Origin: a virus
IMG/VR virus record: IMGVR_UViG_3300035670_000632
Coordinates: 1 to 37,798 of that record
Length of the DNA: 37,798 nt
Strand: one strand, 5' to 3'
The position numbers and the translations under genes were made by a program. The notes below the pieces were generated by a model. The model was not told the DNA's origin. It searched no databases and was given only the letters and a program-made list of their open reading frames with translations. Position 1 is the first letter of the stretch, and each line of letters opens with the position of its first letter. Positions 239 to 37,353 of this stretch are shown here, one piece after another.

Positions 239-462
239 TCGATGATGTTCAGCGTCGTGTTGGTTGCGTTGGCTTTTGCGTACGTGGCCTTACCGACGGG
301 CAAGTATATTGCCGTTCCGCTGGCGACGTTGGCTGTCACATTCGCGCTGGCAGGGCTTGGCACGTCGGCTAGGATGATATCGACGGCTGGCGTGCAGCGA
401 GCCAGCGACTCGCCTGCGTGAATTTCGGTGTATGTGGCGTTGTTAATGGCTACCTGTTTCAT
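235..462 (-). CDS. small hypothetical virion-module protein (75 aa)
   Basis: I do not recognise this 75-residue protein. It is rich in Ala, Thr, Val and Asn, with no Cys-pair motif or membrane segment, and looks like a small beta-rich structural piece. It sits between the gp10-like gene (4-base overlap at its start) and the LamG-type gene (4-base overlap at its end). That tight coupling makes it a likely minor virion or neck component, but only its position supports this. Confidence 0.7.
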   Translation of the reverse strand: MKQVAINNATYTEIHAGESLARCTPAVDIILADVPSPASANVTANVASGTAIYLPVGKATYAKANATNTTLNIIE

Positions 463-1204: not shown

Positions 1205-1208
1205 TGTT

Positions 1209-1793: not shown

Positions 1794-1813
1794 GGGCCTG
1801 CCCCTTTGCTTAC

Positions 1814-2275
1814 TTAGATCCGAGCGTAGTCACCCTTGGCCGCAGCCGCTTGCGTGGTGTCCGCCGTATAGGCCAGCGGGTTTCGCAAGATTAGCTGTGC
1901 CAGAATGCCATCGACCACGGCGTTTGCCGTGCCCCGATTGATGACTGCCCTTACGTAGCGGACTTTGGGCTTGTACACCTCCACAACCGCGACTTTGTTC
2001 GTGTCGGTGTCGGCAAGGTTGGCCGTCTGAATGACAGCGTTCGTGCTGCTATCTTTCAGGTCTGCAACGTCGGCCTGGTTGGCCAGGCACGCGCCTTGCA
2101 GCTTTACCGACGTGACTTGGTTTGCCGTGAGCGTCCCAAACATGGCGATAAAACGCACCCCATCGGCGTTCGTTACATCAACCCATGCGGAGTTGACGGC
2201 AGTCGTGCCAGCCGAGACCGCGTTAGATACGCGGACTGGCTTTACACTGGTCGCTAACTGATATCCGGTAGGCAT
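1814..2275 (-). CDS. putative head decoration or minor capsid protein
   Basis: This 153-residue protein has no motif I can name with confidence. It is Ala/Thr/Val rich and predicted all-beta, with short repeats of small residues (VRFIAMFGTLTANQVTSVKL). It resembles the small virion proteins often encoded directly after major capsid genes. It follows the capsid gene by 18 bases and has an AAAGGA ribosome-binding site. A head-decoration or cement role is an inference from position and composition. Confidence 0.55.
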   Translation of the reverse strand: MPTGYQLATSVKPVRVSNAVSAGTTAVNSAWVDVTNADGVRFIAMFGTLTANQVTSVKLQGACLANQADVADLKDSSTNAVIQTANLADTDTNKVAVVEVYKPKVRYVRAVINRGTANAVVDGILAQLILRNPLAYTADTTQAAAAKGDYARI

Positions 2276-2293
2276 CGCAAACAGTCCTTTCTA

Positions 2294-3715
2294 TCAGCTA
2301 GAGACCTTTTGAGCGCGGAACTTGTACGGCTCCACCAAGTCGCCACCGTAGCGAAGCTTGGCCACAACTTCCGTCATGTTTTCCTTGGCGCGCGTTTGGT
2401 CAAGAATCTGAATCGAAATGTTCGAGCGGGTCAGGCTGACGTAGCCCGAAAAATCGCCGAACAGGATTGGGAAGTTGCTTGAACCGACCGAAGGCATCCA
2501 CTCCGACCAAACAACCGGGAAGCCTTCAAGGGTAGCACCCGATGGTCCGACCAGCGAGCCGCCGTTAGGACTGCCCGGATTTCCGAACACGCGGTCCCCG
2601 TTGGCCGTTCTCAGGCTGGCAATGGTTTTGCCCGCCTTGGTTCGCCCCATCAGGATCGTTGCCGGTTCGATGTACTGTTCCGGGAGACTCCAGAGAAGGT
2701 TCGACAGGCCCGTGTCCGTGAGCGTGGAAGCCGCCCCGGAGTTGACTGAGCTAATCTTGAAGTTGCCATACGACGTCGCGTCGATGTAGTTCAAGATGCC
2801 CACCGGACAGCCGATTCCATCGCCGTTCAGGATGTCGTTGTCCCGGTCCACCTGAGCGGATTTGGACAACTCATCTTGGAACCATCCCATCAGGTCGAAG
2901 GAGGCGTCCTCAAGAAGGTCATTCTCAATTTGGCCTACCATCATCATAGTGTGGACCTGGATTTTAACCGGCGCGAAGTAGCTGTCGCCCGTCGCCATGA
3001 CATCGGCTTCGGTGCTGCTAATCGGCTTCGATCCGGTCTTGATCCGGCGGAATTTGTTACTGTACAGGTCATCCGTATCGTAAGCGTTTCTGTACATCTG
3101 GATCGAATCGCGTGAGGTGTTGATCTCACGAACAATCCCGGCTACCCGCGTCGGCGTGGTCAGCCGCCCCACGATTTCGTTGAGGATGTCCACGGGAGCC
3201 AAAATGGCGCCGCGTTCGTCCGCCCCGGAATCGATGGCCCGCCGCTCCATGTCGTTAAGAGCCGATCGGCCATAACGCAGGGCTTTTTCGGCCGCGTTTC
3301 GGTATTCACGCAGCTTTTTTTGATCGTAGCCGCCGATGGCTTCAAACTTGCGTTCGCCAAACTCGCGTTCGAACGAACTGTAACGACGCAAGGCCGCCAC
3401 ATCGACGATTTCCTCCTCGGTCTGCACCGCACCGATGCGGGTCAGGCCACGGCTTGATGGCGTAGCAATCGCGGGGTTGCGTTCCGAGCGTGCCGCGACG
3501 GCTTCCATTTGTCGAAACTCATCGACGGATTGAGCCGTGCGGAAAGCTTCGATCTTCTTTGCGATTCCGGCGATTTCCGGCGTGATTTTGCGCAGCTCGG
3601 CCCGATCGGAGGCAGAGCTACGCCCTGAATCAATTTTGTCCACAAGGTCACGCGCGCGGGCTTGCTTTTCCGTAAGGTCAGCGACCCATCGGGCATATTC
3701 GCGGTTAGGTTCCAT
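2294..3715 (-). CDS. HK97-fold major capsid protein
   Basis: The 473-residue product has the layout of an HK97-type major capsid protein. Residues 1-110 form a charged coiled-coil delta domain (RARDLVDKIDSG, KKIEAFRTAQ). The fold itself begins near residue 155 with DERGAILAPVDILNEIVG, and the A-domain and last strands carry LEGFPVVWSEWMP, FGDFSGYVSLTR and VVAKLRYGGDLVEPYKF. The delta domain would serve as an internal scaffold removed by the prohead protease encoded just upstream. The ATG shares its first base with the protease stop codon, and AAAGGAGG precedes it. The gene is longer than HK97 gp5 mainly because of the N-terminal domain. Confidence 0.93.
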   Translation of the reverse strand: MEPNREYARWVADLTEKQARARDLVDKIDSGRSSASDRAELRKITPEIAGIAKKIEAFRTAQSVDEFRQMEAVAARSERNPAIATPSSRGLTRIGAVQTEEEIVDVAALRRYSSFEREFGERKFEAIGGYDQKKLREYRNAAEKALRYGRSALNDMERRAIDSGADERGAILAPVDILNEIVGRLTTPTRVAGIVREINTSRDSIQMYRNAYDTDDLYSNKFRRIKTGSKPISSTEADVMATGDSYFAPVKIQVHTMMMVGQIENDLLEDASFDLMGWFQDELSKSAQVDRDNDILNGDGIGCPVGILNYIDATSYGNFKISSVNSGAASTLTDTGLSNLLWSLPEQYIEPATILMGRTKAGKTIASLRTANGDRVFGNPGSPNGGSLVGPSGATLEGFPVVWSEWMPSVGSSNFPILFGDFSGYVSLTRSNISIQILDQTRAKENMTEVVAKLRYGGDLVEPYKFRAQKVSS

Positions 3716-4635
3716 TAACGCCCCTCCTTTAGGGCCGCTTCAAGTTCAAGGTCCGTGAGCAGGTGTTCGGCCATGAGCAGCGCGCTCATTGCTTCCGCCT
3801 CCTCGTCATCTTCCATGCCCTCATCGGGCTTGGTTTCATCGGGCATCGTGGTTTTTTTGGGCTTGCCGCAAGCCTTTTTTTCCTTTGCCATTTCCTTTAC
3901 GACGCCCTTGATAGCATCGGCAAAACGACTAACGATGGCGTCGATATCGGCTTCGTCCACCGTGTCTTCGTTTTCATCGTCTGGCGTGCCTTCTGGCATT
4001 TCGCCAGGCACCATTTTTTCGGCGTCTTTCGGCTTGTCATCGCCGTAGTCATCGCCGCGAGTCGCAAAGCCGAAAATGTTTCGAAGCATCGATCGAACTC
4101 CAGAAATCCGGGCGGCCGGGTTGGCCCCCCTCATGCAAATTGCGGCTTCTTCAACCGTGACATCGGTCAGGACTCTTGCACCGTCACGGGCACGAGCCAT
4201 GTCAGCATCCGTTGGCTGATAGCCGTTGGCTTGCCAGTACGCAGCCAGTTCGTCCGGTCCTAGCTGCTTTTCTTCGTTCACGTAGAAGCCGATCGACATC
4301 TGTTTGATGACGCCCCGCCGCATGCCAGCCAGCACGGATGCACCGTCGAACATGTCTTCATAGATTTCGCCTTCAACCATCAGCCCTTCCGGCGTGATCG
4401 TGGCTTTCGTGGGCTTGCCGATCGGCCTGTCCCAGCGGTGTTCGTAGGTTAGAAAGCCTTCGCTGAGGAAGTGGTCAAGCGAGCGGTCGAAAGCTTTCGG
4501 ATCGATCAGGCTGCCGTAACTGTCCACGTTGAGGAAATTCGACGCCAAACCAACAAACGTGCCGCCGCTCTTGCCGACGGATCGGACTTCGAATCGGCAG
4601 TCGCGGTGAATCAGCTTGCGTTCGGTCGTCGGCAT
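3715..4635 (-). CDS. prohead protease (HK97 U35 family) with acidic C-terminal tail
   Basis: The first ~180 residues match the HK97 prohead protease family. The catalytic histidine is likely H66 in YEHRWDRPIGK and the serine S114 in KQMSIGFYV, followed by the conserved VTVEEAAICMRGANP segment. The last ~110 residues are highly charged (Asp/Glu, then Lys clusters) and probably helical, which resembles a scaffold segment fused to the protease; that role is inferred. An AAGGGG ribosome-binding site precedes the ATG. A copy of the TTCGATAGT element lies 25 bases upstream, inside the end of the glycosyltransferase gene. Confidence 0.88.
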   Translation of the reverse strand: MPTTERKLIHRDCRFEVRSVGKSGGTFVGLASNFLNVDSYGSLIDPKAFDRSLDHFLSEGFLTYEHRWDRPIGKPTKATITPEGLMVEGEIYEDMFDGASVLAGMRRGVIKQMSIGFYVNEEKQLGPDELAAYWQANGYQPTDADMARARDGARVLTDVTVEEAAICMRGANPAARISGVRSMLRNIFGFATRGDDYGDDKPKDAEKMVPGEMPEGTPDDENEDTVDEADIDAIVSRFADAIKGVVKEMAKEKKACGKPKKTTMPDETKPDEGMEDDEEAEAMSALLMAEHLLTDLELEAALKEGR

Positions 4636-4636
4636 A

Positions 4637-6283
4637 TCAGGCCCCTTGCTTCTCCTTCTGGACTATCGAACGCACGGAGTTTTTGACTTTTTCGCGGTAT
4701 TGAGCGTAGAGCGTCAGCAGGTTGCCAGTGCCGCGAATGCGGTTCTGCCACTTGGTAACGCTTTCGATATCGTCGAAGTCGATTTGGCTGTAGTGGAAGA
4801 GTCGCAGCGGCACGCCATCGATAAGCCATCGGCCAGAAACTTGCTCAATCTGCTCCGGCGTGTCCAGACGCCACCAGGCCGCGTTAATGCCCGGATCGCG
4901 GCAGATATGCACCTTGTCAACAAAGTCGGCTACGAAGCGAAGCCAGCCTTGCTCAGCGTAGCGGCCTTCATTGGGTGCTTGCTCGGGTGCGTCAACGGAA
5001 ATTTCAAGCCACCAGTCCACAAAATTACGCGCGGCTTTGCGGTTCGACCACCCGTTAAATCCGGCGTTGTAATTGCCAAACAAAGCGAAGTTTTCCATCG
5101 CCATCCATTTTCCATCGCGTGGCGTTGGCGTGAGCCGGTGCGGCGTCACGATGGCGTCATGCGTGGCCAGTGTGTCGAAAAGGTCGTCTAGCGGTGCGAA
5201 GACTTCCATATCGGCATCGAACATGAGGATTTGCTCATGCCCGATTTCCTGCATGCGTTGAATCAGCATGCAGCGGTTGAAGCCCGTCATCACGCCATTT
5301 TTGAGAAATTGCTTCGTTCGGTACTTTGGGTCGAAATCGTCCCACGTTAGGATTCGCAAACCGACGGGAATCGTCACCTCTGCCAGCCTTGCCGGATCGC
5401 TTAGAAAAAACAGATAGCACGCGATATCGCTTTCGTGATGCCGTTGGAATGATTCCAGCGACACGAGGAATTGATCCCACCGTTCAACCGACGATGCCCA
5501 CCCGGCTGCCTTAATCGTTGGGTTCCACGCTTTGGCAGGCTCCCAAGGCAACCGGCCGCCAAGCCGCTCCCGCATGCGTTGATTGCCCGTCAAGAAAAAC
5601 TCCGGTTTCGGCGTTAGCTCGCGTGATCCGAGAGCGTAGTTGACCGTAGGTTTCGCAATTAGAGCGTGTTTCGGCGCGTCTCCCATCAGGGCAGTCGCGA
5701 CGATGGTGTCCGGCGTTGGCCCGTCGTTTGCGTTTTCGACGTTGTGCGGCCTATGCCACATCGGCCCAAGCTGCACGGCCACTTGCCGCGATAGGCAGAA
5801 GCACGAGGTGTCAACGTGGTGATGTGGCCCGAACCACGTCGGCACTACGGCTAAGGACTCGCACTCATCCACGCAAACGAATGAGCCGTCCGCGTCGTAG
5901 ATGTTTCGCATCGTCGCGCACCAGTCCAAGCCATGCTCTACGCATGCTTCGATGCACTCGGTTACGTGATCGGGTTCGTACCAGTTGTCATCGTCAAGAT
6001 AGAAAATCCAGTCCTGATTCAGCAGCAGCGGAACGGAGCCGTAAACGCGGTGTCCGTTGAAGCCACCCGCTCCCGTGTTCTGAGGCAACGGCAAAATCTG
6101 GATACGCGGATCGGGAAGTAAGCCATCAAGCGTATTGAGCACGTCTGGCCCGTATTGCGGACCATCCACCACCACGATAGCTACGGTGTGCGGGTGCGTC
6201 TGGGCGAGCACGCTTTCGACGGCTTGGCGTAGCGTTGCCCGCCCCGTCGTGGGAATGATCACGGCTGCGGTCTGGTCGCTCAT
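4637..6283 (-). CDS. two-domain glycosyltransferase (GT-A/GT2 N-terminus, second GT-A-like C-terminus)
   Basis: Residues 1-230 are a family 2 glycosyltransferase: AAVIIPTTGRATLRQAVESV opens the Rossmann-like fold, and FYLDDDNWYEPDHV carries the metal-binding acidic motif. Residues ~250-500 form a second nucleotide-sugar fold with a DxD-like ILMFDADMEVFAPLDDLF and the segment YNAGFNGWSNRKAARNFVDWW. The second half resembles uncharacterised sugar transferase domains. I start at the ATG at 6283, which has GGAAGG 7 bases upstream and overlaps the previous stop (TAATG); an ATG at 6298 is less likely. It lies between the Mu F-like and protease genes, suggesting modification of virion proteins or of the host surface (inferred). 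Confidence 0.85.
   Translation of the reverse strand: MSDQTAAVIIPTTGRATLRQAVESVLAQTHPHTVAIVVVDGPQYGPDVLNTLDGLLPDPRIQILPLPQNTGAGGFNGHRVYGSVPLLLNQDWIFYLDDDNWYEPDHVTECIEACVEHGLDWCATMRNIYDADGSFVCVDECESLAVVPTWFGPHHHVDTSCFCLSRQVAVQLGPMWHRPHNVENANDGPTPDTIVATALMGDAPKHALIAKPTVNYALGSRELTPKPEFFLTGNQRMRERLGGRLPWEPAKAWNPTIKAAGWASSVERWDQFLVSLESFQRHHESDIACYLFFLSDPARLAEVTIPVGLRILTWDDFDPKYRTKQFLKNGVMTGFNRCMLIQRMQEIGHEQILMFDADMEVFAPLDDLFDTLATHDAIVTPHRLTPTPRDGKWMAMENFALFGNYNAGFNGWSNRKAARNFVDWWLEISVDAPEQAPNEGRYAEQGWLRFVADFVDKVHICRDPGINAAWWRLDTPEQIEQVSGRWLIDGVPLRLFHYSQIDFDDIESVTKWQNRIRGTGNLLTLYAQYREKVKNSVRSIVQKEKQGA
4660..4669 (-). promoter_or_regulatory. TTCGATAGT element, copy 1 (candidate late promoter core)
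   Basis: On the minus strand this reads TTCGATAGTC, about 25 bases before the prohead protease start. It lies inside the last codons of the glycosyltransferase gene, where it encodes part of Ser-Ile-Val, so chance is possible. Three further copies stand directly before late genes outside coding sequence or at a gene end. Confidence 0.35.
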
Positions 6284-6492
6284 TAGTTTGCCTTCCATTT
6301 GTTCATTTGTCGTGCGGCCTCAAAGTCTATGGCAGTCGTGAACTTCCATGCAGACCACGTAATTCCTACGACGCCAACAGCGAGCCAGAGTCCGCCGTTG
6401 CATGTTGCCGCAATGATTGCGACGGATGCAATCCACCCCAGCATCCCGTAACTGGCTTCCCGAATGACACAATCTGGCGTGTCCGAAGTCAT
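6283..6492 (-). CDS. small membrane protein between two glycosyltransferases
   Basis: This 69-residue protein has two hydrophobic stretches, MLGWIASVAIIAA (about residues 17-29) and GLWLAVGVVGITWSAW (about 34-49), so it should be a small integral membrane protein with a charged C-terminus. Its ATG overlaps the stop of the upstream glycosyltransferase, and its TAA overlaps the ATG of the downstream one. The three genes are therefore translationally coupled. It could help position the enzymes at the membrane, but no family is recognised. Confidence 0.72.
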   Translation of the reverse strand: MTSDTPDCVIREASYGMLGWIASVAIIAATCNGGLWLAVGVVGITWSAWKFTTAIDFEAARQMNKWKAN

Positions 6493-8300
6493 TGTTCGCC
6501 TCCTAAGTAAACGGGTTTCACGCCCGCGTAATAACCCGATTCGCGTGCGACATCGGCCACGAACTGAGCGAAAATTTCGGCGTCCGAGTGGTCGTAAATA
6601 GGTGCCAGACGCACGCCTGCAAAATGCCTGCGCACGGCTTCCCGATAACCGTCATCGTTTGCCATGCGGGCAACTTCTCGCACATATTCGTATTTGTCGA
6701 TATAAGGACTCGCTTCGATGGCTCTACACATCGCTCCGCCGATGGCCGAAAACCACCGGCCCGCGTGACACTCAGGCACGGGCACGACCGGCACGCGGCA
6801 GTGCAGCGCATCGGAGATCGTGTTCGAACCGCCAAACGGCCAACAGTCCACAACAAAGTCGCATTCCGCAAGTTTGGCCATGTACTGTTCATAGCTAAGA
6901 TGAGCGACCAGCTCAACGTGAGCCGGTGCAAGTGCTTCACCCAGCGTATCGGCAAAAACTGCCAGGCCCTTGTAGCTCATCGGAGCGTGGCCCGTGAACA
7001 TTCGGACGCGGATTTTGCGTTGGCATTTGCGGATAGCCTGGCCCATCGCTGCAAGCCATTCATGGTTGATTTTTTGGCCGTAGGCTGCACAGCCAATAAG
7101 GATGTCATCGCTTGGCTGCTTTTCAGGCTTAGGCTCGGTCGTAATCGGCTCATGCACGCAACCGAAGCCCGGCAGGATGGCGAGCCGCTCGGTATAGTTG
7201 TCCTCGTTGGTGTCCGTAAGCTCGCCTGAAACAAACCAGTCCATTTCGCCGCCAAACGTAGATACCGGATGGCCCGTTAGCAGGATTTGCGTTGGTGCGA
7301 TTCGCAGGTTCGACATAAGAATTGACGGCATGGTCATTCCCACATCCGGAAAGATCACGGCTGACCATGGGTTATTTTGAAGCGGTTCAACGTCCAATTG
7401 CAGCCCGGTTGACTTAAGCCGGATCACTCGGTCAAAGCCTGTAGTGTCTAATTCTTCCGTTTTCTTGACTGCATGGATTAGCGTGATTTCGTCAAAGTGA
7501 GGCCGCAAGGCGCGAATGTAGCCCGCCAACGTCCGGTGTACAGAATGACCTTCGTTCCAGTATTCCGAGAATACCGCGATCTTCCGAGGGTCCGGCTTGT
7601 TTCGGATCGTCTCAGTTACCTGACGCTTGATCGCTGCGTTAATAAGCCCCTTGACCCGTCGCTCGGTATCGATGTTGCCTAAATAGGAAACAAGAAAGTA
7701 GGTTTCCTGCAGGTCCAGCGTCGGTTCTAGCCGATCGTCCAGTTGATGCAAAATCCGCAAGGCATGAGCGTGGACCGCCGCATCGGCGTTGCCTTGATAA
7801 AGCGTCTTTATGGCCTGATTAAGCCACGTGCTCGCCATCATCGGGTTTGCCGTGAGCATTTGCCCAACGTCAATTACGGTCGTGTTTCGCGGTGAATAAA
7901 GAACCGCCGACTTGAAGGCCGCCTGCTTCTGCCCCGCAACCAGCCGCAGGTAAACGTCCGTCGTCATGCCGACGCCCGCAAACACGTTGGCGATGATCGG
8001 GTTGGTCCGCAACATGCCGATACCTAGGGATTCCGGTATCGTAAACCGCTCATCACAGAACACGCCCAAAGCTGCCGTGATTTTTTGGGCGAACTCGCAC
8101 CGCGTCGGCTCGTCATGACCGATACGCGGATCGTCGGCTATAGACTGAATCAGCCTGACGAATGATTCTGCCGCCTGTTGTCTCCGTCCGCTGGCGTGGT
8201 GTGCCAGCAGGTCTCCGAGGTGATCGGCCCCGGCTTTGGTCGCTTCTGTGTTAGTGGGAAAAACAATCCGCGCGCCGCTTCGTGTGGTCTTCGTGTGCAT
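6489..8300 (-). CDS. GT41/HMW1C-like glycosyltransferase (O-GlcNAc-transferase-type catalytic half)
   Basis: The roughly 600-residue protein has a helical N-terminal half (about residues 1-240) and a C-terminal GT-B half. The latter resembles SPINDLY/OGT and HMW1C enzymes: IAVFSEYWNEGHSVHRTL opens the first Rossmann domain, QILLTGHPVSTFGGEMDW matches the GYPG-like segment, and DFVVDCWPFGGSNTISDAL plus VPVVPVPECHAGRW match the donor-binding end. Such enzymes transfer a sugar to Ser/Thr or Asn of proteins. The ATG at 8300 is chosen because upstream in-frame codons lie within the previous gene. A TATAAT and a TTCGATAGT element lie 35-50 bases upstream. The target (virion or host protein) is unknown. 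Confidence 0.82.
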   Translation of the reverse strand: MHTKTTRSGARIVFPTNTEATKAGADHLGDLLAHHASGRRQQAAESFVRLIQSIADDPRIGHDEPTRCEFAQKITAALGVFCDERFTIPESLGIGMLRTNPIIANVFAGVGMTTDVYLRLVAGQKQAAFKSAVLYSPRNTTVIDVGQMLTANPMMASTWLNQAIKTLYQGNADAAVHAHALRILHQLDDRLEPTLDLQETYFLVSYLGNIDTERRVKGLINAAIKRQVTETIRNKPDPRKIAVFSEYWNEGHSVHRTLAGYIRALRPHFDEITLIHAVKKTEELDTTGFDRVIRLKSTGLQLDVEPLQNNPWSAVIFPDVGMTMPSILMSNLRIAPTQILLTGHPVSTFGGEMDWFVSGELTDTNEDNYTERLAILPGFGCVHEPITTEPKPEKQPSDDILIGCAAYGQKINHEWLAAMGQAIRKCQRKIRVRMFTGHAPMSYKGLAVFADTLGEALAPAHVELVAHLSYEQYMAKLAECDFVVDCWPFGGSNTISDALHCRVPVVPVPECHAGRWFSAIGGAMCRAIEASPYIDKYEYVREVARMANDDGYREAVRRHFAGVRLAPIYDHSDAEIFAQFVADVARESGYYAGVKPVYLGGEQ

Positions 8301-8333
8301 CGTGTTATTCCGTGTGCGTTGTTCGTGGCAACG

Positions 8334-8348
8334 TATTATACTATCGAA
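8334..8348 (-). promoter_or_regulatory. TTCGATAGT element, copy 2, joined to a TATAAT hexamer
   Basis: The minus strand reads TTCGATAGTATAAT, 34 bases before the ATG of the large glycosyltransferase and overlapping the stop codon of the Mu F-like gene. The TATAAT hexamer is a good -10 box; no clear -35 box is seen. It is a candidate internal late promoter separating the head-assembly genes from the glycosyltransferase genes. Confidence 0.45.
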
Positions 8349-9171
8349 CGAGAGGTTTTGACCAATAGATCGGCTTAGGATCGCCTGAATAAACCGCGTC
8401 CAGAATCGGAATTGTCGTGCATCGGCAGTGTGGATGAGCGGGCGGAAAGTTGATCGTTCTGTATGACAAATTTTTCCCAATAAACGCAAACGGCTGCCCA
8501 ATCTTCACCCGCCGCATTCCGTCAGGGCTGGTCGAATCCGCCGCGATGGCATCGCAGACCGGGCAAGATGCCGACGTAGCGCGCCATTCCCAGCCCACCA
8601 CGACCCCGGCGTCCTTTGCGGACCGTTCCCGTGCGAGGTGATGAGCGCGGGTTGCTTCCGTCTGAGCGATCCGGCGTGCCCGTGCTCGGTTCGTGTCGCG
8701 GAAGTACTTCATGAGCCGCTTTGTCAGTTCTGGCATCGTCTCGCCAGCTTGCAGCCGCCCCTCGTCGATATCTTTGCGGATGGCCGCCTTCAGGTCGTCA
8801 TACGTGGCAAAAAGATCGTCTCTAAATGTGGCTTGCGTTGATTCTGCAAAATCTAGCACGCTATCGCGGATCGCAGCGCGTAGGGCTTCTGACACTACCC
8901 GCCACCGTTCCGGGTCCAAGCCAATCTCGAGGTATAGCCGCTTGCCAGACTTTTCCCAAATACCCGTGATTTCGGGAATGAACGCATCGGCCTCGTCCAC
9001 AAGTTGCGGGTCCGATGGCCGCAAAAGCTCCGCCGGTGCATAGAACACGTCGGCGCGCTTTTCGCCCCGTGCCCGCTCAATTACAAGCCGCCCCTGTTCG
9101 TTGAAACTGGCCAGCAGCTTCCGATACAGGCCAGAGCCTAGCGGCAGGTTGAAATCATTTGGCTCGGTCAT
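8341..9171 (-). CDS. phage Mu F-like head morphogenesis protein (minor capsid)
   Basis: The 276-residue protein matches the Mu gpF / SPP1 gp7 minor head family. A helical N-terminal region is followed by RARRIAQTEATRAHHLARER (about residues 175-195) and the paired Cys motifs CPVCDAIAADS and HPHCRCTTIP that end the domain. Family members bind the portal and travel with DNA. It directly follows the portal gene with a 4-base overlap, the standard arrangement. Confidence 0.9.
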   Translation of the reverse strand: MTEPNDFNLPLGSGLYRKLLASFNEQGRLVIERARGEKRADVFYAPAELLRPSDPQLVDEADAFIPEITGIWEKSGKRLYLEIGLDPERWRVVSEALRAAIRDSVLDFAESTQATFRDDLFATYDDLKAAIRKDIDEGRLQAGETMPELTKRLMKYFRDTNRARARRIAQTEATRAHHLARERSAKDAGVVVGWEWRATSASCPVCDAIAADSTSPDGMRRVKIGQPFAFIGKNLSYRTINFPPAHPHCRCTTIPILDAVYSGDPKPIYWSKPLVR

Positions 9172-10427
9172 CCGAACAGGTTCCCGCCCGGCAGAGGCTG
9201 CCCAATGCCATTTTCACGATCGATCTCCCACTTGTATCGATCGCCCATCACGACATCGCCTGTGCGACCAGTTTCTTCGAGGAACATGTTAAGCGTGATC
9301 GTTCCCGCCAGGTACGCATCTAGTGCACGCTTGTGAACCGCGTCCATGTTTTCTTGCAGATCCTGCACACCCGAAAGGTCGTGCTCTAACCGATACCGTT
9401 GCGGATCAAGCCCAAACTCTGGCATGAGCTTCCGCGTGATCGTCGATCGGATCAGCTTAAGCAAGGGTAGGACGCCCGATTCCCACGCGGATCGTTTTGC
9501 CGTCGCGTAGTTGTCATAGGTCTTCGTCGCCGATGGCAAGCCCAAAACCTCAGGCGGCACACCCACAGCCCCACAAACCAGCGGCATGGCGTTATGCGGC
9601 AGTTTGTCGAGGGCCATTTGCTCAGGGCTAAATCCGACGGTTTCTAGCTTAATCCGCCGATTGACGGCGATTGTGCTTCCGCGCATGTCACCGCGCGTCA
9701 TTTTGTTCAGCGATGACTTGATAGCCAGCCCGTCGTCATCCGTCAGTTCATCGTCGGCTTCCTCAGGTGTCACCACCATGCCTGGTACGCCAGAATTTTT
9801 CAGGATCGAAACGGAATAGCCCGCCGCCTCGTTTAGCAGGCAGATTTGCCGCAAAACGGATTTGAGCTTGGATAGACCAAGCCGCGTGTTTATCGGGTCG
9901 ATACCCCATCGGAAATGCAGCACGTCTTCCTTGGGAAACTCGTCAACCTGCCCGTCGATGCGATAACGCCACGAATCAAGGTATCTTGATCCGTCCGTCG
10001 GATAGAGCGGGTACATATACCGCTCATCCAGCCAGTAAAGCCCGATCGGCAACCGCCCGATTCCGCCCCGCTGGATGTACAGAAAAGCATTGCCCGAGGT
10101 AATTAGGCTCATGCCGATGGCCAGATCGCGCGTAAAAGCGTCGTAATCCGCGTTGTTTATCGCCCAAAGTTCGGCTAAAGGCGTGTCGTAGATCGGCGAC
10201 CAAGTATCGTCCGGCTGCCGCTCTTGAACCACCATCGGCAACATGTTGATTTTGTCGCCGACCCAGTTTACGGCCAGCGAAACTACGTCATTTAAATAGA
10301 TGTCACCGGCTTCGTTTTCCCAGTCGTAACGAGCACCAGGCAACAGGCCAATGCGACGCGATCCGCCGTTGCCACCGTAGCCGGTGAAGATTTTCAAGTC
10401 CGGGCGATTCGAGCGGATTCGGGCCAT
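9168..10427 (-). CDS. portal protein (HK97 family)
   Basis: The 419-residue protein has the HK97-type portal pattern. Examples are VSLAVNWVGDKINMLPMVV near residue 50, DLAIGMSLITSGNAFLYI, the long central helix region SVLRQICLLNEAAGYSVSIL, and CGAVGVPPEVLGLP with TYDNYATAKRSAWE towards the C-terminus. The portal forms the dodecameric channel for DNA. I chose the ATG at 10427 (MARIRSNRP), 2 bases past the terminase stop; an in-frame ATG at 10472 would overlap the terminase by 43 bases. Confidence 0.92.
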   Translation of the reverse strand: MARIRSNRPDLKIFTGYGGNGGSRRIGLLPGARYDWENEAGDIYLNDVVSLAVNWVGDKINMLPMVVQERQPDDTWSPIYDTPLAELWAINNADYDAFTRDLAIGMSLITSGNAFLYIQRGGIGRLPIGLYWLDERYMYPLYPTDGSRYLDSWRYRIDGQVDEFPKEDVLHFRWGIDPINTRLGLSKLKSVLRQICLLNEAAGYSVSILKNSGVPGMVVTPEEADDELTDDDGLAIKSSLNKMTRGDMRGSTIAVNRRIKLETVGFSPEQMALDKLPHNAMPLVCGAVGVPPEVLGLPSATKTYDNYATAKRSAWESGVLPLLKLIRSTITRKLMPEFGLDPQRYRLEHDLSGVQDLQENMDAVHKRALDAYLAGTITLNMFLEETGRTGDVVMGDRYKWEIDRENGIGQPLPGGNLFG

Positions 10428-10429
10428 CG

Positions 10430-12115
10430 TTAGAGCATCCTGATCTTGCGTTTCGCTGCCAGTTTCCGGCACGCCCCCGCTGCCGCGTCAACCATGTCAT
10501 CGTGCCTCCCGTTGGGGAATTGGCACAGTTGCTCTATGAACTTTCGATTCCAAGCCGCTTTCACGAGGACAAGGTTCCCGGCCTCGGCCTGCGACGCAAG
10601 CGATTCTGCCCGCGACCACTTCGGCCCCGTCGGATGCTCCCAGTGGACGGCAAACCCGGATAGTGCCTTGGCCTCCTCCTCCGCCGCGTCGGCTCCTGAC
10701 GAACCGCCTTCGTGCTCGATCCATATCACGGTCCCGCTCGGGTCATTTTCGGCGCATGCCCGTTGCAGGTCCCGCCGCCCCTTCGGCGTCACTTTCTTTT
10801 CCACGACGTCGCAGACGGTGAACACGCCATCGCGAACGGCCATGAGCACGCCCGCCGTAAAATCGGCGTCTTTGTCCAAACTGCTGGCTTTGTCCCAGTA
10901 GCGAACAAACCGCACGTCCCCGCCCGCTGGCATGGTTTCCGTGTACTTGCTAAACCACTCCCGCTGGAACATCCCGCCCGTGCGTGGCGTTGGCCGCTGC
11001 TGATACAGGGCCGCGAACTTCCATTCGCCGCGACGCTTGATCCGTTCCAATGCATCTATCGGCCAGCGTGACGGCCAAAGAGCCGCCCCCTCGGGCCGCC
11101 CAAGCGGATCGCCTTCACCCTCGCTAATGCCCGGAATTCGGACGTATTCCCAGTGCTCCGGTTGATCCTGTTCCACCGGCGCGTCCTCATCGGTCTCCGT
11201 TTCGCCTGATTCCGCGTCGCGGCCTTCCACGAGCGAACCGATTAAGTCGGCTTCATGCCGCCTTGTCATGATGACGATCGCCGCGCCCTTGGGGCTTAGG
11301 CGGGTCAGGGCTTCGCTCACGAACCAGTCCCATATCTTTTCCCGGATTAGAGGCGAAGACGCCTCCTGAACGTTTTTAACCGGGTCGTCGATGATCAGGA
11401 CGTCGGCACCGTGGCCCGCGATGCCACCGCCAACGCCCACGGCGTACATCCGTCCGCCGCCGCTTGTCTCCCATTCCGAAGCCTGAGCGACTTTCGGATT
11501 GAGTGACAGGCCCATCTTTTCGGCTAGTTTGCGAGCTTTGCGGCTAAACTTGCGGGCCAGACTGACGGCGTAACCGGCCGCGATGATTTCCCGCGTTGGG
11601 TCCCGTTCAAGGAACCAGACGGGCGCGTGAATCGACAGAAGTTCGCTCTTTCCGTGCCGTGGCGGCATGGACACGATAAGCCGCTTTAGCTCGCCCCGGT
11701 CGATCGCCTCTAGCTTCTCTTGCAGAAGCAGCAGGTGCGGTGCGTCCCAGTCGTGGCCCGGCGTGGCGCGTTTCAGCCATGCGTTAATCGGTTCTCGCTG
11801 AACTTCTGGTTGTGCTTCGCTTAGTTCGTCTGTTTTGTCCGGCTCGCTGGCTTTTCCGTCGGTGACATCGATGAGTATTTTTGCCCATTCCGCCGAATCA
11901 CATCGTTTTTCTTGCATCAAGTTGTCGTAGATTTTTAAGATAACGCTATCAACTCGCTGTATTCCACCCTCGGAAACGGCTTGCATCAATCGCTTTGCGG
12001 CGTCACGGAACATTTTCGTTTTCGGCCTGCCTGGTGAAGCGCAATTTCCGGGTTTGAATCGCGTTAGTTCTCCGATTTTGTGCCCTGGCGTAAAGTGTCC
12101 GTTTGGTTGTCGCAT
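10430..12115 (-). CDS. terminase large subunit with a DUF5681-like N-terminal extension
   Basis: The 561-residue packaging motor has a Walker A motif PPRHGKSELLS (about 151-161), Walker B DVLIIDDPVKN (about 238-248), the coupling segment AAIVIMTRRHEADL, and a C-terminal nuclease with RYWDKASSLDKDADF and a final HDDMVDAAAGAC. The first ~95 residues are unlike a normal large subunit. They carry RFKPGNCASPGRPK followed by helices, the pattern I recall from small DUF5681 proteins that often accompany terminases. No separate small-terminase gene is seen next to it, so this extension may do that job (inference). The gene follows the split sigma pair by 39 bases. Confidence 0.93.
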   Translation of the reverse strand: MRQPNGHFTPGHKIGELTRFKPGNCASPGRPKTKMFRDAAKRLMQAVSEGGIQRVDSVILKIYDNLMQEKRCDSAEWAKILIDVTDGKASEPDKTDELSEAQPEVQREPINAWLKRATPGHDWDAPHLLLLQEKLEAIDRGELKRLIVSMPPRHGKSELLSIHAPVWFLERDPTREIIAAGYAVSLARKFSRKARKLAEKMGLSLNPKVAQASEWETSGGGRMYAVGVGGGIAGHGADVLIIDDPVKNVQEASSPLIREKIWDWFVSEALTRLSPKGAAIVIMTRRHEADLIGSLVEGRDAESGETETDEDAPVEQDQPEHWEYVRIPGISEGEGDPLGRPEGAALWPSRWPIDALERIKRRGEWKFAALYQQRPTPRTGGMFQREWFSKYTETMPAGGDVRFVRYWDKASSLDKDADFTAGVLMAVRDGVFTVCDVVEKKVTPKGRRDLQRACAENDPSGTVIWIEHEGGSSGADAAEEEAKALSGFAVHWEHPTGPKWSRAESLASQAEAGNLVLVKAAWNRKFIEQLCQFPNGRHDDMVDAAAGACRKLAAKRKIRML

Positions 12116-12154
12116 TTCATGCTCAACGCCCGTTTGTCGCCCGTTTTGGCGAGT

Positions 12155-12448
12155 TTACACATCTTCCGCCATCAGGTCCGTGAACGTCTTCGCGTTGGCC
12201 ACCTTGCTCTTACGCGGCTTCCCGGCGTCGAGGATGGCCCATTTGATCTTCCGCCACAGGAACGTCGAGAACGAGGCTCCCTTGGAACTGTCGTAGTTGA
12301 GCACCGCCGCGATCAAGGCGTCCTCCACGATCGTCCGCCGCCGCTCACGCTGCTGTGGTGTTAGGCTGGCCCCGCCGTAGATCGACATTCCCATGTTCAT
12401 AGCGTCTGGCAACCATTTCAGCATCGTGGCTTGGTGCCTTTTTGTCAT
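12155..12448 (-). CDS. sigma-70 region 2-like protein (half of a split sigma factor)
   Basis: The 97-residue protein has a core, IVEDALIAAVLNYDSSKG then FSTFLWRKIKWAILDA (about 42-76). It corresponds closely to sigma-70 regions 2.1-2.2 (pattern: ...ai..yDp.kG..FstflwrkIrgaIlD), the part that binds RNA polymerase core and contacts the -10 element. No region 3 or 4 follows; the protein ends about 20 residues later. Its ATG overlaps the stop of the upstream gene, which encodes a region 4-like protein (ATGA), so the two are made together. I take the start at 12448: a longer reading to 12760 uses the frame of the overlapping gene and is low-complexity. The arrangement recalls the two-subunit sigma SigO/RsoA of Bacillus. 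Confidence 0.78.
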   Translation of the reverse strand: MTKRHQATMLKWLPDAMNMGMSIYGGASLTPQQRERRRTIVEDALIAAVLNYDSSKGASFSTFLWRKIKWAILDAGKPRKSKVANAKTFTDLMAEDV

Positions 12449-12738
12449 TCGCTTGGGCTTCGGTCGATGTGGTTTCGCATCCGCTGCAAGGCCGCTTCCA
12501 ACGTCGTTTCCGCGTCTTCCTGTTTGATCCTGAGAATCTTGGCGATGAACGTGATCGACCGCGGCCGATGCCCTGCCAGGCCGAACCGCATCGTCACGAT
12601 CTGCAGCTCCACATCGGCCAGGACATCGAGAGCAGCCGTCAGCCGTTGCCGCGTCTCGCTGGCAAGCGCGGCTTCGACGGGACCGGGCCGATGGTCCCGG
12701 CATGCTTCGTTCAGGCCGAGCGGCTTGTGCGGTGGCAT
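12445..12738 (-). CDS. sigma-70 region 4-like protein (other half of a split sigma factor)
   Basis: The 97-residue protein carries LTAALDVLADVELQIVTMRF and then GLAGHRPRSITFIAKIL, with DAETTLEAALQRMRNHI at its end (about residues 33-90). This is the order seen in sigma-70 regions 4.1-4.2: loop, conserved RFGL, then a helix-turn-helix and a final helix. A short acidic GPVEAALASETRQRL precedes it, as in primary sigmas. It has no region 2. It sits first in a putative transcription unit with a TTGACA box about 75 bases upstream, and the region 2-like gene follows with a 4-base overlap. Region 4 alone could also act like the RinA/ArpU late activators that precede terminase genes in Gram-positive phages. 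Confidence 0.78.
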   Translation of the reverse strand: MPPHKPLGLNEACRDHRPGPVEAALASETRQRLTAALDVLADVELQIVTMRFGLAGHRPRSITFIAKILRIKQEDAETTLEAALQRMRNHIDRSPSE

Positions 12739-12783
12739 CCATCGTTCTCGCCTGCATCACGAGCCATCGGAGCCATGAGTGAT

Positions 12784-12814
12784 ACTATCTCAATCATGCT
12801 ACCAATTCTGTCAA
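12784..12814 (-). promoter_or_regulatory. candidate promoter for the split-sigma / terminase unit
   Basis: The minus strand has a perfect TTGACA at 12809-12814. The best -10 candidate is GATAGT (12784-12789) at a long 19-base spacing, so the pair is only moderately convincing. It lies in the 125-base gap between the ThyX and region 4-like genes, which holds no gene. The GATAGTATCA sequence here recurs at 18247-18256, where it overlaps the stop of a small gene. Confidence 0.4.
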
Positions 12815-12863
12815 GTCTTTGGGCAAATTGCAAGATTTTTTTTCGCGGCTGCTGTTTGCCACG

Positions 12864-13601
12864 TCACACTTTTTTCCATTTGAGCCGTATGGATTCGTGC
12901 GAATCCTCGTCGGTGAACACTTCCATGTCCTGAAACACGTTGGGAGCGTATTCGGCAAGCCCGGGCAAAAGTGCCACCGCCAACCGCCGGATTTCCAAGT
13001 CTGCATGAATGTTCCCCCTCTGTTCCAGAATGTTCCGCCAGGCACGCAGGTTACCCGTGAATGCGATGTGGGTCTCGGTGCAGTTTGGAAGAACGGACCG
13101 TGCGGCCTCCCGAATTCGCTTGCGAGACAACGTGTCGGTAGCTTCTTCGTCGCACAGAAGGCGATAGAAATCGAGCGATTCCTGCATAGCCTTGGACCAC
13201 GTTTTGACCGTCAAGTCGCGTCCGATGTATCTCGGAGGCACCACGAACCCAATATCAGACACGTCCACGTATCTTTAAGAAAGCTCGCTCACGGCAGTCC
13301 CGGCCCTGTGCCTGATCAGTTCGTGCGTCAACGACCTCGAAACACCGTGGATGATAAAGCCCACCGTAGCGTGCTCAAGAACGCTCCCATGCCCTTCGGA
13401 GAGGATTCGCTCCATGTAAGCGCGGTTGCCGCCCGGCCTGGGCCTCGAAAACGATTGATAGCAGACGCGGCCAGCAATTTCGGGAATCGCCTGAACTGAA
13501 TCCCAGTCTTCAGGCTCGAACGGCGAAATGTACTGTGCAATCTCGGTGCATGGCGTTGTCGCCCAGGACGCGATAATCGTGGGCTGGTAAATCAGGTTCA
13601 T
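12864..13601 (-). pseudogene. thyX: flavin-dependent thymidylate synthase ThyX, interrupted by an in-frame TAA
   Basis: ThyX makes dTMP from dUMP using FAD and methylene-tetrahydrofolate. The first 108 codons carry AGRVCYQSF, GHGSVLEHATVGFI and the signature HELIRHRAGTAVSELS. A TAA at 13275-13277 follows, and the same frame then continues RYVDVSDIGFVVPP with VLPNCTETHIAF, LRAWRNILEQR and HADLEIRRLA, the normal second half. The stop replaces one residue in the S-x-R-Y part of the RHRx7S motif region, where Gln or Leu often stands; one base change (CAA or TTA to TAA) explains it. No frameshift is needed and about 245 codons are otherwise intact. Either the gene died recently, the stop is read through or suppressed, or the base is a sequencing error. 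TAA is a true stop in other genes here. Confidence 0.85.
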
Positions 13602-14107
13602 TCTTCGCCCTCTAGCGGGTATGGCAAAAGGTCTGGCCAGCCGCCAAGATCAATATCGGGCCTGAACTTAAGATGCATTGCAGTTCTGTGGACCCGCTTC
13701 GGGTCCAGCGGCGGGACCGGCATTTTCTCAAGCTCGATCGCATGTTGCCGAAGTTCCTCATGTCGTCGCAAAACATGGCTCGGCAGCGGTGGCGAATCGT
13801 GGCCCGGAAGGATCTTCCACGCGACTATGTCCCACTCGTCAAGAGCCTCCTTCATCGCCGCGTTTCGGTCTTCAAGGTGGCGGACGTAGCGAGCAACTCT
13901 GTCCAAGTGCTCGCTTTTTTCTTTTCGCTCCCATCGATCAATTGTTTGCTTTGCCTCCCGGTGCGGGTCCGCCGCCTCGGCTTTGAGCTTGGCAAGTTTT
14001 GTCTCTAATACGTCGATCAACGTGGAAATCTCCCATTCCGGCTGATCATGGCTGCTGAACTTGCAAAGCACTGACAAATCGGCCTTCAGTTGTTCTAGCT
14101 CAGTCAT
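13598..14107 (-). CDS. hypothetical coiled-coil protein (169 aa)
   Basis: No family is recognised. The protein is charged and helical, with a likely coiled coil over residues about 35-95 (ETKLAKLKAEAAD, DRVARYVRHLEDRNAAMK). The Pro-rich C-terminus contains HLKFRPDIDLGGWPDLLPY. Its stop overlaps the ThyX start (ATGA) and its own start overlaps the end of the next gene upstream, so it belongs to the same accessory operon. Confidence 0.7.
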   Translation of the reverse strand: MTELEQLKADLSVLCKFSSHDQPEWEISTLIDVLETKLAKLKAEAADPHREAKQTIDRWERKEKSEHLDRVARYVRHLEDRNAAMKEALDEWDIVAWKILPGHDSPPLPSHVLRRHEELRQHAIELEKMPVPPLDPKRVHRTAMHLKFRPDIDLGGWPDLLPYPLEGEE

Positions 14108-14706: not shown

Positions 14707-15196
14707 TTCTGCCCCCTTTCGGTAACCGGAATTCCACGCCATGCCGCAGGATCGACAAAACAAACGATATCGGCAGTTTTATCGACTCGTCGCCGTTGAT
14801 CTGCATGACATCGACCGTTCCGTCGTGTTCGCCCCAAAGCCGAAAGCCTGTAATTCTCCACTCGCCAATTCTTTGACCGATGTACAGGTCCTGCACTCTA
14901 AGTGCGGGTTTGACCGGCAACGTCTCGATCGGCCCCTCGAAACCGTCCACGCCAGACCAACCACACGCCACGCGGGCTTGGTGCCAAAATGTATAGTTTG
15001 CGATCTCATATTCGAAGTCAGAGACTTGCGAACATGCTTCACGGCACCTGTCAAGCTCGACGGCCATGGCATGATATTTTCGATCTAGTCGATTTTGCTC
15101 TGCATTAAGCAGCTCCCTTGCCCGCTCCCGGTCGCCGTCGCGAATCGCTTCAATCACTGGATCCAGACGTCCCACCTGATTCGGTATCACGCTCAT
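14696..15196 (-). CDS. hypothetical protein, MSVIPN-family copy A
   Basis: The 166-residue protein has an N-terminal helical part, MSVIPNQVGRLDPVIEAI, continuing RARELLNAEQNRLDRKYHAM and DRCREACSQVSDFE. This is duplicated in the next gene upstream (15193-15738). The C-terminal half (LRVQDLYIGQRIGEWRITGF, then FRLPKG) is unrelated to that copy. The start at 15196 has AAGGGGGCGG upstream and overlaps the preceding stop (ATGA). Function unknown. Confidence 0.7.
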   Translation of the reverse strand: MSVIPNQVGRLDPVIEAIRDGDRERARELLNAEQNRLDRKYHAMAVELDRCREACSQVSDFEYEIANYTFWHQARVACGWSGVDGFEGPIETLPVKPALRVQDLYIGQRIGEWRITGFRLWGEHDGTVDVMQINGDESIKLPISFVLSILRHGVEFRLPKGGRNEG

Positions 15197-15738
15197 TTTC
15201 CGCCCCCTTCTTTTTGCATCTCTTCCCACAGTTCCGCCGCGTCGGCGACGATCGGCAAAATGTCGATTGTGTCATCTTTGTGCACGTGCCACTCCGCCAG
15301 CCGCCGCACAATATCGGCAAGGCAAGCATGGTAGTTAGCGGCGTGGACGATGAAATCGGCCATTTCGAGACTGTAAATCACAGGCGCGACAGTCACGCCA
15401 GCCGCGTCTATCACCTCGGCAGGAACACCCTTTGCACCGAGATGCCTTAGCGGAAGTTTGAAAGACTGCCCAGGCACCGCTACCCCGTTCTCGTCCCGTC
15501 TCATCGCCCTGCCCTCCGTTTCAATTCGTGGCCATTCGCGTCGTATCGCAACCTCGAAGTCCGAAACCTGCGAACACGCCTCTCTGCACTTGTCAAGCTC
15601 GGCAGCAATGGCATGGTATTTCTCGGCAAGCCGCTTCTGCTCAACATCGAGCAACTCAATCGCCCGATCCCAATCCCCGTTGCGAATCGCGTCCACCACG
15701 TCATCCAGCCGCCCCACCGAATTGGGAATCACGCTCAT
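15193..15738 (-). CDS. hypothetical protein, MSVIPN-family copy B (mosaic)
   Basis: This 181-residue protein is a mosaic. Its N-terminal ~65 residues match copy A (MSVIPNSVGRLDDVVDAI, then EACSQVSDFE). Its C-terminal ~105 residues, from MRRDENGVAVPG to the end, match the whole of the next upstream gene (15735-16040), including HAANYHACLADIVRRLAEWH and DTIDILPIVADAAELWEEMQ. The DNA behind the last ~40 codons is identical to that gene. It reads as a product of unequal recombination between tandem copies. Function unknown. Confidence 0.7.
   Translation of the reverse strand: MSVIPNSVGRLDDVVDAIRNGDWDRAIELLDVEQKRLAEKYHAIAAELDKCREACSQVSDFEVAIRREWPRIETEGRAMRRDENGVAVPGQSFKLPLRHLGAKGVPAEVIDAAGVTVAPVIYSLEMADFIVHAANYHACLADIVRRLAEWHVHKDDTIDILPIVADAAELWEEMQKEGGGK
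15201..15321. repeat. 121-bp perfect direct repeat, copy 1 (542-bp period)
   Basis: This segment is identical to 15743-15863. Beyond it, similarity at the same 542-base offset continues rightwards to about 15351/15893 and, less well conserved, leftwards to about 15013/15555. It encodes the C-terminus of the mosaic gene and the start of its downstream neighbour's ribosome-binding region. Confidence 0.9.
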
Positions 15739-16040
15739 TCCTCGCCCCCTTCTTTTTGCATCTCTTCCCACAGTTCCGCCGCGTCGGCGACGATCGGCAA
15801 AATGTCGATTGTGTCATCTTTGTGCACGTGCCACTCCGCCAGCCGCCGCACAATATCGGCAAGCCGCGCATGGTAGTTAGCGGCGTGGACGGAAAATTCG
15901 GCGGTGTCCTTTTCATAGCCTAGCGGAGCTTGCTTTGCGTCAGCTATCGCAATCCATGTTTCGATACGTTCAGGGTTGCATTGCCACGGAAGCGGATCAG
16001 CAGGCCCCGGCATCGCTACCCCGTTTTCATTGCGTCTCAT
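15735..16040 (-). CDS. hypothetical protein, MRRNENG family (101 aa)
   Basis: The 101-residue protein is the free-standing form of the C-terminal module of the adjacent gene: MRRNENGVAMPGPADPLPW, then HAANYHARLADIVRRLAEWH and ILPIVADAAELWEEMQKEGG. The middle 30 residues differ. It is probably a small helical protein. The ATG lies within the end of the 54-residue gene upstream (14-base overlap). Function unknown. Confidence 0.68.
   Translation of the reverse strand: MRRNENGVAMPGPADPLPWQCNPERIETWIAIADAKQAPLGYEKDTAEFSVHAANYHARLADIVRRLAEWHVHKDDTIDILPIVADAAELWEEMQKEGGEE
15743..15863. repeat. 121-bp perfect direct repeat, copy 2
   Basis: This copy is identical to 15201-15321. The perfect identity over 121 bases, flanked by diverged sequence at the same offset, points to recent gene conversion or recombination within an older duplication. 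Confidence 0.9.
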
Positions 16041-33704: not shown

Positions 33705-34595
33705 TCAAAAATTAAGGCGAGACCAGTTTAACCCGGCTTTCGGTGCGAACGTCTCATGATCGCTTAACGCCCAAGAATCACCTTCACGCAGCATCCGTTC
33801 CGCCGTCGTCTTGCGTACCTTCATCACAGCCGGACACCAGCCATCCGGCCCGCCCGTGTAACAGGCCCCCCAAGAGTTGGCCACCCACAGGCACGGAGTT
33901 GGCGTCAGCTCATAGCCTACGATGCACTGCTGGTGATTCCACGTGCCGCTTGCCGTTCCAAATCCATTCGCATCTAGCCGCATCCGAAAACCTTGAGCCG
34001 ATGCAATCGTGACCGGATAGCCCGCCGCCAGTGCCGCCACCGCTTCATCGAAGCTAGTGACCTGTGCGTATCGTCGAACCGGATACTGACGTGCAATCGG
34101 TTCGAGTGCGTCGGGCACGCCCTTGTAGCTGTTGGAGCCACAGCAGACCGAGGGATTGTACTTGCTCAGGTCGAAGGCCTCGTGCCGCCGCTGCTCGATT
34201 GTCCCGTAATTCTGAAGGTACTTCGCGGCCCACACTCCCACCGAGCCTTCTGAGCGACCGAGCCGCCCGCCGCCGATCTCGACTCTCGACCCCCAATAGA
34301 TCGTCATCGGGTCCGTTCGGCCTTGGGGCTTGCGTCTTCGGTTGCTTACGATTTCGATGGCCGTCAAAACGTCGCACGCCAGAGCCGCACCGAAAGCCAC
34401 GCATGAGCCACACTCCCCTTGGTTCAAGTACCAGGCAGGCCCCCAAACTTTCTCTAGTGCTTTCGTCAGGTCCACCGCATCAGGTGCCCCCATGGGCACC
34501 AAAAACGAAGCCAGCGGCCTAAGATGGTCACGCTGGATTGCTTTCGGCACTTCCGTTGCCGCGATGTCTGGACGCCATCCGGTTGATTGGCTCAA
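33705..34595 (-). CDS. papain-family (C1) cysteine protease
   Basis: The 296-residue protein has the C1 peptidase triad in order. NQGECGSCVAFGAAL (about residues 58-72) carries the oxyanion Gln and the nucleophile Cys. GTWNHQQCIVGYEL (about 217-230) carries the active-site His. LWVANSWGACYTGGPDGW (about 235-252) carries the Asn-Ser-Trp motif. No signal peptide or long inhibitory propeptide is seen. It starts at a TTG with GGAGG 7 bases upstream, overlapping the preceding stop. It stands between small membrane genes and the tail operon. Possible roles are virion maturation, lysis or attack on host proteins; all are inferences. Confidence 0.88.
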   Translation of the reverse strand: MSQSTGWRPDIAATEVPKAIQRDHLRPLASFLVPMGAPDAVDLTKALEKVWGPAWYLNQGECGSCVAFGAALACDVLTAIEIVSNRRRKPQGRTDPMTIYWGSRVEIGGGRLGRSEGSVGVWAAKYLQNYGTIEQRRHEAFDLSKYNPSVCCGSNSYKGVPDALEPIARQYPVRRYAQVTSFDEAVAALAAGYPVTIASAQGFRMRLDANGFGTASGTWNHQQCIVGYELTPTPCLWVANSWGACYTGGPDGWCPAVMKVRKTTAERMLREGDSWALSDHETFAPKAGLNWSRLNF

Positions 34596-36728: not shown

Positions 36729-36892
36729 CCGAAATACCCCCTCGGAAAGTAGCGTGGCTGTTGCTCTAAAGGACTTTCGACTTTGCCCATTGCCGCTTTG
36801 ATCGCTTCCGTGTCCCGCTTGATTTCCGCGATGCGTTCGAACAGCTTGGGGTCCGTTACGGTGATCGTGACTCCGGGCTTTATGTTGCTCAT
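36725..36892 (-). CDS. small hypothetical protein (55 aa)
   Basis: This short gene encodes MSNIKPGVTITVTDPKLFER then IAEIKRDTEAIKAAMG, ending in an aromatic PRYFPRGYFG. Both ends overlap the neighbouring genes as ATGA: the sigma stop at its start and the next ATG at its end. That chain of overlaps supports it. Unknown function. Confidence 0.6.
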   Translation of the reverse strand: MSNIKPGVTITVTDPKLFERIAEIKRDTEAIKAAMGKVESPLEQQPRYFPRGYFG

Positions 36893-37353
36893 GCGGATAG
36901 CACCTCCCGAACGTGGTTGAGGCCGCGTTTATGGTGATTTCGCACCGTGCCTTCGTTCATATCGAGAGCACGTCCGATGTCCTGCCATCCCGCGTCGGCT
37001 TCGTAGGTCATGCGGATCACCGCCGTTTGCATTTTGCTGCATCTTGCCAAGTACCAGGCCGGAATTGGGCGGACCCGTTTCGGCGTTCTGGCGGCTGGCT
37101 CAATCGTCAGGTCCGCAATCTTTCGCGTCTCATAGGCGACTTCTGGCCAGAATTCCCGCCGTGCTGCTTTGCAAGCCCACGCGGTGGACTCCCCTTGATG
37201 CATGGACTCGAGAGACACCGTTACGGCGATCGACATCAGGTCGTCAGCGTGCCGCCTGTATCTTGGGGCGATGATTGTGCGGCGAAAATACCGCATGACC
37301 GACGAAACACGGTTGCTCAATTCCGATCCTGAGGCGTGTGGGATGGTTTTCAC
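36889..37353 (-). CDS. ECF-like RNA polymerase sigma factor
   Basis: The 154-residue protein has both sigma modules in the normal order. A region 2-like helical part is VMRYFRRTIIAPRYRRHADD, LMSIAVTVSLESM, then AWACKAARREFW (about 19-68). A region 4-like helix-turn-helix near the C-terminus is CSKMQTAVIRMTYEADAGWQ and DIGRALDMNEGTVRNHHKRG, then LNHVREVL (about 107-152). The linker is short, as in ECF sigmas. The region 2 match is weaker than region 4. It would redirect host RNA polymerase; the TTCGATAGT elements are possible targets (inference). It overlaps its neighbours by 4 bases on both sides. Confidence 0.75.
   Translation of the reverse strand: MKTIPHASGSELSNRVSSVMRYFRRTIIAPRYRRHADDLMSIAVTVSLESMHQGESTAWACKAARREFWPEVAYETRKIADLTIEPAARTPKRVRPIPAWYLARCSKMQTAVIRMTYEADAGWQDIGRALDMNEGTVRNHHKRGLNHVREVLSA

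Follow-up and report, generated by a model that had tools for sequence, protein, structure and literature searches.

The window analysed here, that is, the whole stretch of DNA, comprises 37,798 bases of a virus record, and its larger annotated genes all lie on the minus strand. At the locus under study, two overlapping genes each encode a protein of 97 residues: P0001, which resembles region 4 of sigma factors together with the preceding linker, and P0002, which resembles region 2 (Table 1). Both frames and both lengths are as the first-pass annotation had described them, and so is the overlap of a stop and a start codon in ATGA just before the terminase gene; the gene for the terminase large subunit (TerL) starts on the same strand, 39 nt beyond the P0002 gene. 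Upstream of the pair lie the genes for ThyX, RusA, a helicase, a primase and an Erf-like annealing protein, and downstream those for the terminase, the portal, a head morphogenesis protein, a protease and the capsid protein. The pair occupies the junction between the replication and packaging modules, which, judging from position, is a usual place for a late regulator.

Table 1. Features of the window, in order of position.
Feature	Position	Strand	Remarks
Family-2 glycosyltransferase-like protein	4637..6298	-	Between head genes
TerL, 561 aa	10430..12115	-	Family matches
TerL N-terminus, first ~110 aa	11786..12115	-	Terminase-small-subunit-type sequence; suggests a fusion
P0002, 97 aa, sigma region 2 protein	12155..12448	-	FliA/WhiG type by profile matches
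ATGA, stop/start codon overlap of the P0001 and P0002 genes	12445..12448	-	Read from sequence
P0001, 97 aa, sigma region 4 protein with preceding linker	12445..12738	-	RpoD/SigA type by profile matches
125-nt gap upstream of the pair	12739..12863	-	TTGACA at 12814-12809; candidate promoter only
ThyX gene	12864..13601	-	One in-frame TAA
300-nt stretch, first copy	15003..15302		Function-unknown genes
300-nt stretch, second copy	15545..15844		82% identical to the first, 542 nt apart; function-unknown genes
Papain-like cysteine protease	33705..34595	-	
P0003, 154 aa, second region-4-like protein	36889..37353	-	Pfam Sigma70_r4 3.6e-7, residues 109-150

Both frames of the pair have a coding composition. 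GC by codon position was 0.68/0.47/0.76 for P0001 and 0.50/0.45/0.82 for P0002, both resembling the terminase gene (0.65/0.47/0.67), and third-position GC is high in both frames, as in the other genes of this phage. The P0002 frame can be extended upstream to an ORF of 201 aa (12155-12760). This longer ORF was rejected as the P0002 gene, since the extension has a non-coding composition (0.75/0.67/0.50), and the ATG at 12448 was therefore taken as the start of P0002. The overlap of the two genes suggests that they share a transcript. However, 4-nt overlaps also occur at about 14 other gene junctions in the window, with genes chosen mechanically; because such overlaps are common in this genome, the ATGA carries little weight for joint function. 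No well-placed -10 element for the TTGACA was found in the gap upstream of the pair, and the intergenic gaps of the window displayed no shared or repeated late-promoter motif. The FliA-type -10 word GCCGATAA, with at most one mismatch, occurs 57 times in the window against about 30 expected in shuffles; these occurrences are scattered over both strands and may be due to codon usage.

The relationship of each protein to sigma factors was assayed with profile libraries. P0001 matched Pfam Sigma70_r4 at 1.7e-4, under Pfam's curated cut-off, NCBIfam RpoD/SigA at 6.7e-8 and SigA chains in the PDB at 5e-4. Every sigma family or chain listed for this protein belonged to the RpoD, SigA, RpoS, sporulation or ECF kinds, the best being RpoD/SigA. 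P0002 matched Pfam Sigma70_r2 at 5e-3, also under the curated cut-off, FliA_WhiG at 5e-5, the PHROG sigma factor family at 5.3e-5 and WhiG in the PDB at 4.5e-4, FliA and WhiG coming first among its matches. Because the Pfam scores were under the curated cut-offs, we built region 2 and region 4 HMMs from other sigma factors only, with the query left out, and used 2000 shuffles as control. P0001 scored 16.1 bits against the region 4 HMM (best shuffle, 7.6) and did not match the region 2 HMM. P0002 scored 36.1 bits against the region 2 HMM (best shuffle, 7.9) and did not match the region 4 HMM. In the libraries as with these HMMs, each protein matches its own region only, in agreement with the regions first assigned to them. 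Neither protein matched PF25742, the Pfam family of SPO1 gp33.

The alignment-free AlphaFold model of P0002 (pLDDT 69) contains helices at residues 3-24, 31-50 and 60-75. The 50 PDB matches listed for this model were in effect sigma proteins only, matched over the region-2 fold. Top Foldseek probabilities were 0.96-0.99, with a best E-value of 0.17 and none below 0.1; this result corroborates a region-2 fold in the predicted model but does not prove it. The single-sequence model of P0001 was poor, and no fold-search match was obtained from it.

The possible roles of the two proteins were approached through residue patterns, from one sequence each. In P0001, IVTMRFGL aligns with VLRMRFGI of RpoD; this conserved stretch belongs to the side of region 4 that we take to face the beta flap. 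The recognition helix is acidic (QEDAETTLEA, against RERIRQIEAK in RpoD), and only two of the nine RpoD positions that we take to be the sigma70 -35 contacts are kept, namely R562 and E585. By these positions, P0001 lacks the -35 recognition residues of a primary sigma. P0001 thus seems suited to anchoring on the flap rather than to reading a -35 element, a view that could be wrong, and an altered -35 specificity would fit its helix just as well. In P0002, the aromatic and basic residues of segment 2.3-2.4 are kept (FSTFLWRKIKWAILD), and the 10-mer NYDSSKGASF is common, letter for letter, to P0002 and flagellar FliA proteins. The DLIQxG of region 2.2, which faces the beta' clamp helices, is absent and ERRRTIV is found there instead. 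P0002 may then read the -10 element but contact the clamp in an altered way, and this too could be mistaken. With canonical contact residues partly missing in both halves, binding of core polymerase is certain for neither.

The same residues could be read in another way. The acidic helix of P0001 and the absence of DLIQxG from P0002 would be in keeping with proteins that fill their sites but do not read promoters in the normal way. The pair might thus be decoys, small region 2 and region 4 proteins that vie with the sigma of the host for clamp and flap and shut off host transcription; T4 gp33 on the flap does repress basal transcription (PMC2988020). We consider decoys improbable, since P0002 keeps the aromatic and basic residues that face the -10 element and the pair is located at the early/late junction, not in the early region.

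Being encoded directly upstream of TerL, P0002 might be the small subunit of the terminase, with a chance likeness to region 2. However, the first ~110 aa of TerL resemble a separate small gene found upstream of the terminase in L040 and in relatives that include L091 and L116. As TerL carries this small-subunit-like sequence at its own N-terminus, there is no need for P0002 to be the small terminase. In addition, the region 2 match of P0002 is far above the shuffles and the fold search gives sigma factors. A small terminase is thus hardly credible, and this assignment was rejected.

Elsewhere in the window, P0003 is a second protein resembling region 4; it gave no match to region 2 models, its N-terminal part included. 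The related contig L034 connects position 66 of the window with ~37,715, a short stretch that does not match lying between them, and the map is therefore probably circular or circularly permuted. Stand-alone region 4-like phage regulators are of a known kind (RinA/ArpU type), and P0003 is another region-4-only match in the same genome. P0001 and P0002 might then be two independent regulators, P0001 being a region 4-like late activator or flap binder that acts with the host sigma and P0002 an unrelated small regulator that adjoins it by chance. The routine 4-nt overlaps of this genome are compatible with such independence, as is the resemblance of the two proteins to different sigma groups. On the other hand, it would be an unlikely coincidence for complementary halves of one fold to adjoin with nothing between them, and P0002 would be a very incomplete sigma if it had no region 4 partner. 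Independent regulators thus appear rather unlikely.

The gene next to the pair, for the thymidylate synthase ThyX, has its in-frame TAA inside the signature motif (RHRAGTAVSELS*RY). Among relatives, those ThyX copies in which this motif was read have no stop at that site. Contig 3300034073_001963 displays the same in-frame stop, but its sequence is that of the window. In L082, near position 4001, the residues just ahead of SQLSQRY in a ThyX relative resemble an intein C-terminus (VANGLVTHN followed by S).

Relatives of the pair were searched for in several collections. A second phage, contig 3300042542_001893 (L032), has a terminase 79% identical to that of the window. This contig begins inside a P0002 homologue, of which ~28 C-terminal residues are visible (73% identical), followed by the terminase gene; the P0001 homologue falls past the end of the contig. 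Over the visible tail, 7 synonymous and 8 non-synonymous codon differences separate the two phages, the replacements being mostly conservative. Contig 3300034073_001963 is identical to positions 1-13914 of the window and was rejected as a second case of the pair, being the same sequence and not independent. There is thus one complete instance, the sole real relative being cut off inside P0002. No further split pair emerged from six-pattern IMG/VR scans, for which P0001, P0002 and P0002 aligned to the L032 fragment served as queries.

A GTDB scan with P0002 recovered flagellar FliA genes only, matching over the 2.3-2.4 segment. Phage and plasmid sequences gave nothing when searched with P0002 by tblastn, and 399 genomes from a single bacterial phylum yielded no P0002 relative. 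Region 4 and compact-sigma matches in human-faecal 'phage' records came from bacterial-looking contigs, with sigA and flagellar operons. The INPHARED 'Bacteriophage sp.' faecal scaffolds L071, L072 and L074 (MT835847, MT835480 and MT836790) resemble pieces of bacterial chromosome. Terminase relatives at 30-42% have different small genes upstream of the terminase, and their contigs gave no match to Pfam region 2. Among 56 ThyX loci, a sigma gene was found nearby in L115 only, as a continuous gene.

Continuous compact sigmas, with region 2 followed by region 4 in one gene, are present in the phage sequences L037 and L038 (both 173 aa) and L115 (230 aa). The region 2 of L037 is of FliA/WhiG type, as in P0002, and the L115 gene comes directly after ThyX, as the pair does here. 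The first-pass annotation had considered that the lack of a significant region 2 or region 4 match, or homologous phages with one continuous gene, would refute the split; neither was seen, both profile matches being real and the closest relative keeping the region 2 tail by the terminase, although compact sigmas do exist in other phages. Non-functional remains of a continuous gene, broken or rearranged, would be in line with these compact genes, above all that of L115, and with the in-frame stop in the ThyX gene beside the pair. However, the order of region 4 before region 2 cannot arise from a simple break, and one protein is RpoD/SigA-like and the other FliA/WhiG-like. Coding composition in both frames, and the conservation of the P0002 tail in L032 through synonymous changes and mostly conservative replacements, also argue against such remains. 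They are very improbable, and a broken single sigma gene was rejected because of the reversed order, the different group affinities and the coding frames.

Two-protein sigma systems have been described in bacteria and phages. In Bacillus subtilis, SigO and RsoA (yvrI-yvrHa) carry region 4 and region 2 on separate proteins encoded in one operon, and both are required (PMC8103513, PMC10028694). According to published descriptions, the present pair is similar in this division and in having the region 4 gene first, as initially pointed out, yvrI being named before yvrHa. It differs in that SigO-RsoA is a bacterial acid-stress system, and in size, SigO being 22.5 kDa and RsoA 9.0 kDa (PMC10141391) whereas P0001 and P0002 have 97 aa each. 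SigO-RsoA had been presented as the only well-known parallel, which is not the case: T4 gp55 and gp33 are called a split sigma for late genes in a review (PMC2988020), and SPO1 gp34 and gp33 together drive late transcription (PMC3601020).

The T4 system consists of a sigma-2 equivalent bound to the beta' coiled coil and a second protein that sits on the beta flap, replacing sigma 4 (PMC2988020). The pair studied here is phage-borne like gp55/gp33, its own late-gene role being a proposal. P0001 may, like the T4 flap protein, anchor without reading a -35 element, but gp33 has no recognisable sigma sequence similarity (PMC2988020) whereas P0001 does. T4 late transcription requires the sliding clamp gp45; among the protein families matched in the present window, no clamp gene stood out. 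SPO1 genes 33 and 34 are two phage genes that overlap by ATGA, as those of the pair do, and the small partner comes first (overlap checked in NC_011421). Unlike the pair, they are not a region 2/region 4 split: gp33 matches its own Pfam family PF25742 and no region 4, and gp34 contains region 2 and a weak region 4. A two-protein phage late sigma is thus not new in kind, contrary to the original suggestion, as both phage systems precede it. The present pair is distinct in that each half can be recognised as sigma and is confined to one region, the two being of about equal size and resembling different sigma groups.

Altogether, we favour, with some reserve, the interpretation that P0001 and P0002 are halves of a phage-made sigma, which would act on the RNA polymerase of the host in the form of two separate chains. 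It draws on the region-4-only and region-2-only matches in separate adjoining proteins, the region-2 fold modelled for P0002, the coding signature in both frames and the P0002 tail kept beside the terminase in L032. The location after the replication genes and directly before the terminase, portal, protease and capsid genes, and the precedents for two-protein sigmas, also argue for it. It is weakened by the single complete instance, the routine 4-nt overlaps, the missing contact residues, the lack of a repeated promoter motif in the gaps and the presence of region 4-like P0003 in the same genome. Joint action of the two proteins, which we infer, is reasonably probable.

In such a two-polypeptide sigma, P0001 would dock on the beta flap like sigma domain 4, P0002 would read and open the -10 element, and the two would keep each other, or the core, in position. 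Together they would switch on the downstream genes for packaging and structural proteins. If P0001 is anchor-like and the clamp contact of P0002 is altered, each would need the other. More tentatively, the pair could be a late sigma of mixed ancestry, combining an RpoD-type region 4 that no longer reads the -35 element with a FliA-type region 2, and functioning as an AND gate. The region 4 protein would then be an anchor on the beta flap, the region 2 protein would read the -10 element and depend on its partner for core binding, and both co-translated proteins would be required for late transcription.

If both proteins are needed, the pair would represent a phage equivalent of SigO-RsoA, each half still being identifiable as sigma. 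It would link SigO-RsoA with the split sigma of T4, whose flap partner is no longer recognisable. Two proteins of 97 residues would then provide a minimal system for study of the contacts required by a sigma whose DNA-reading and core-anchoring ends lie on separate chains, and for asking how such a split arises.
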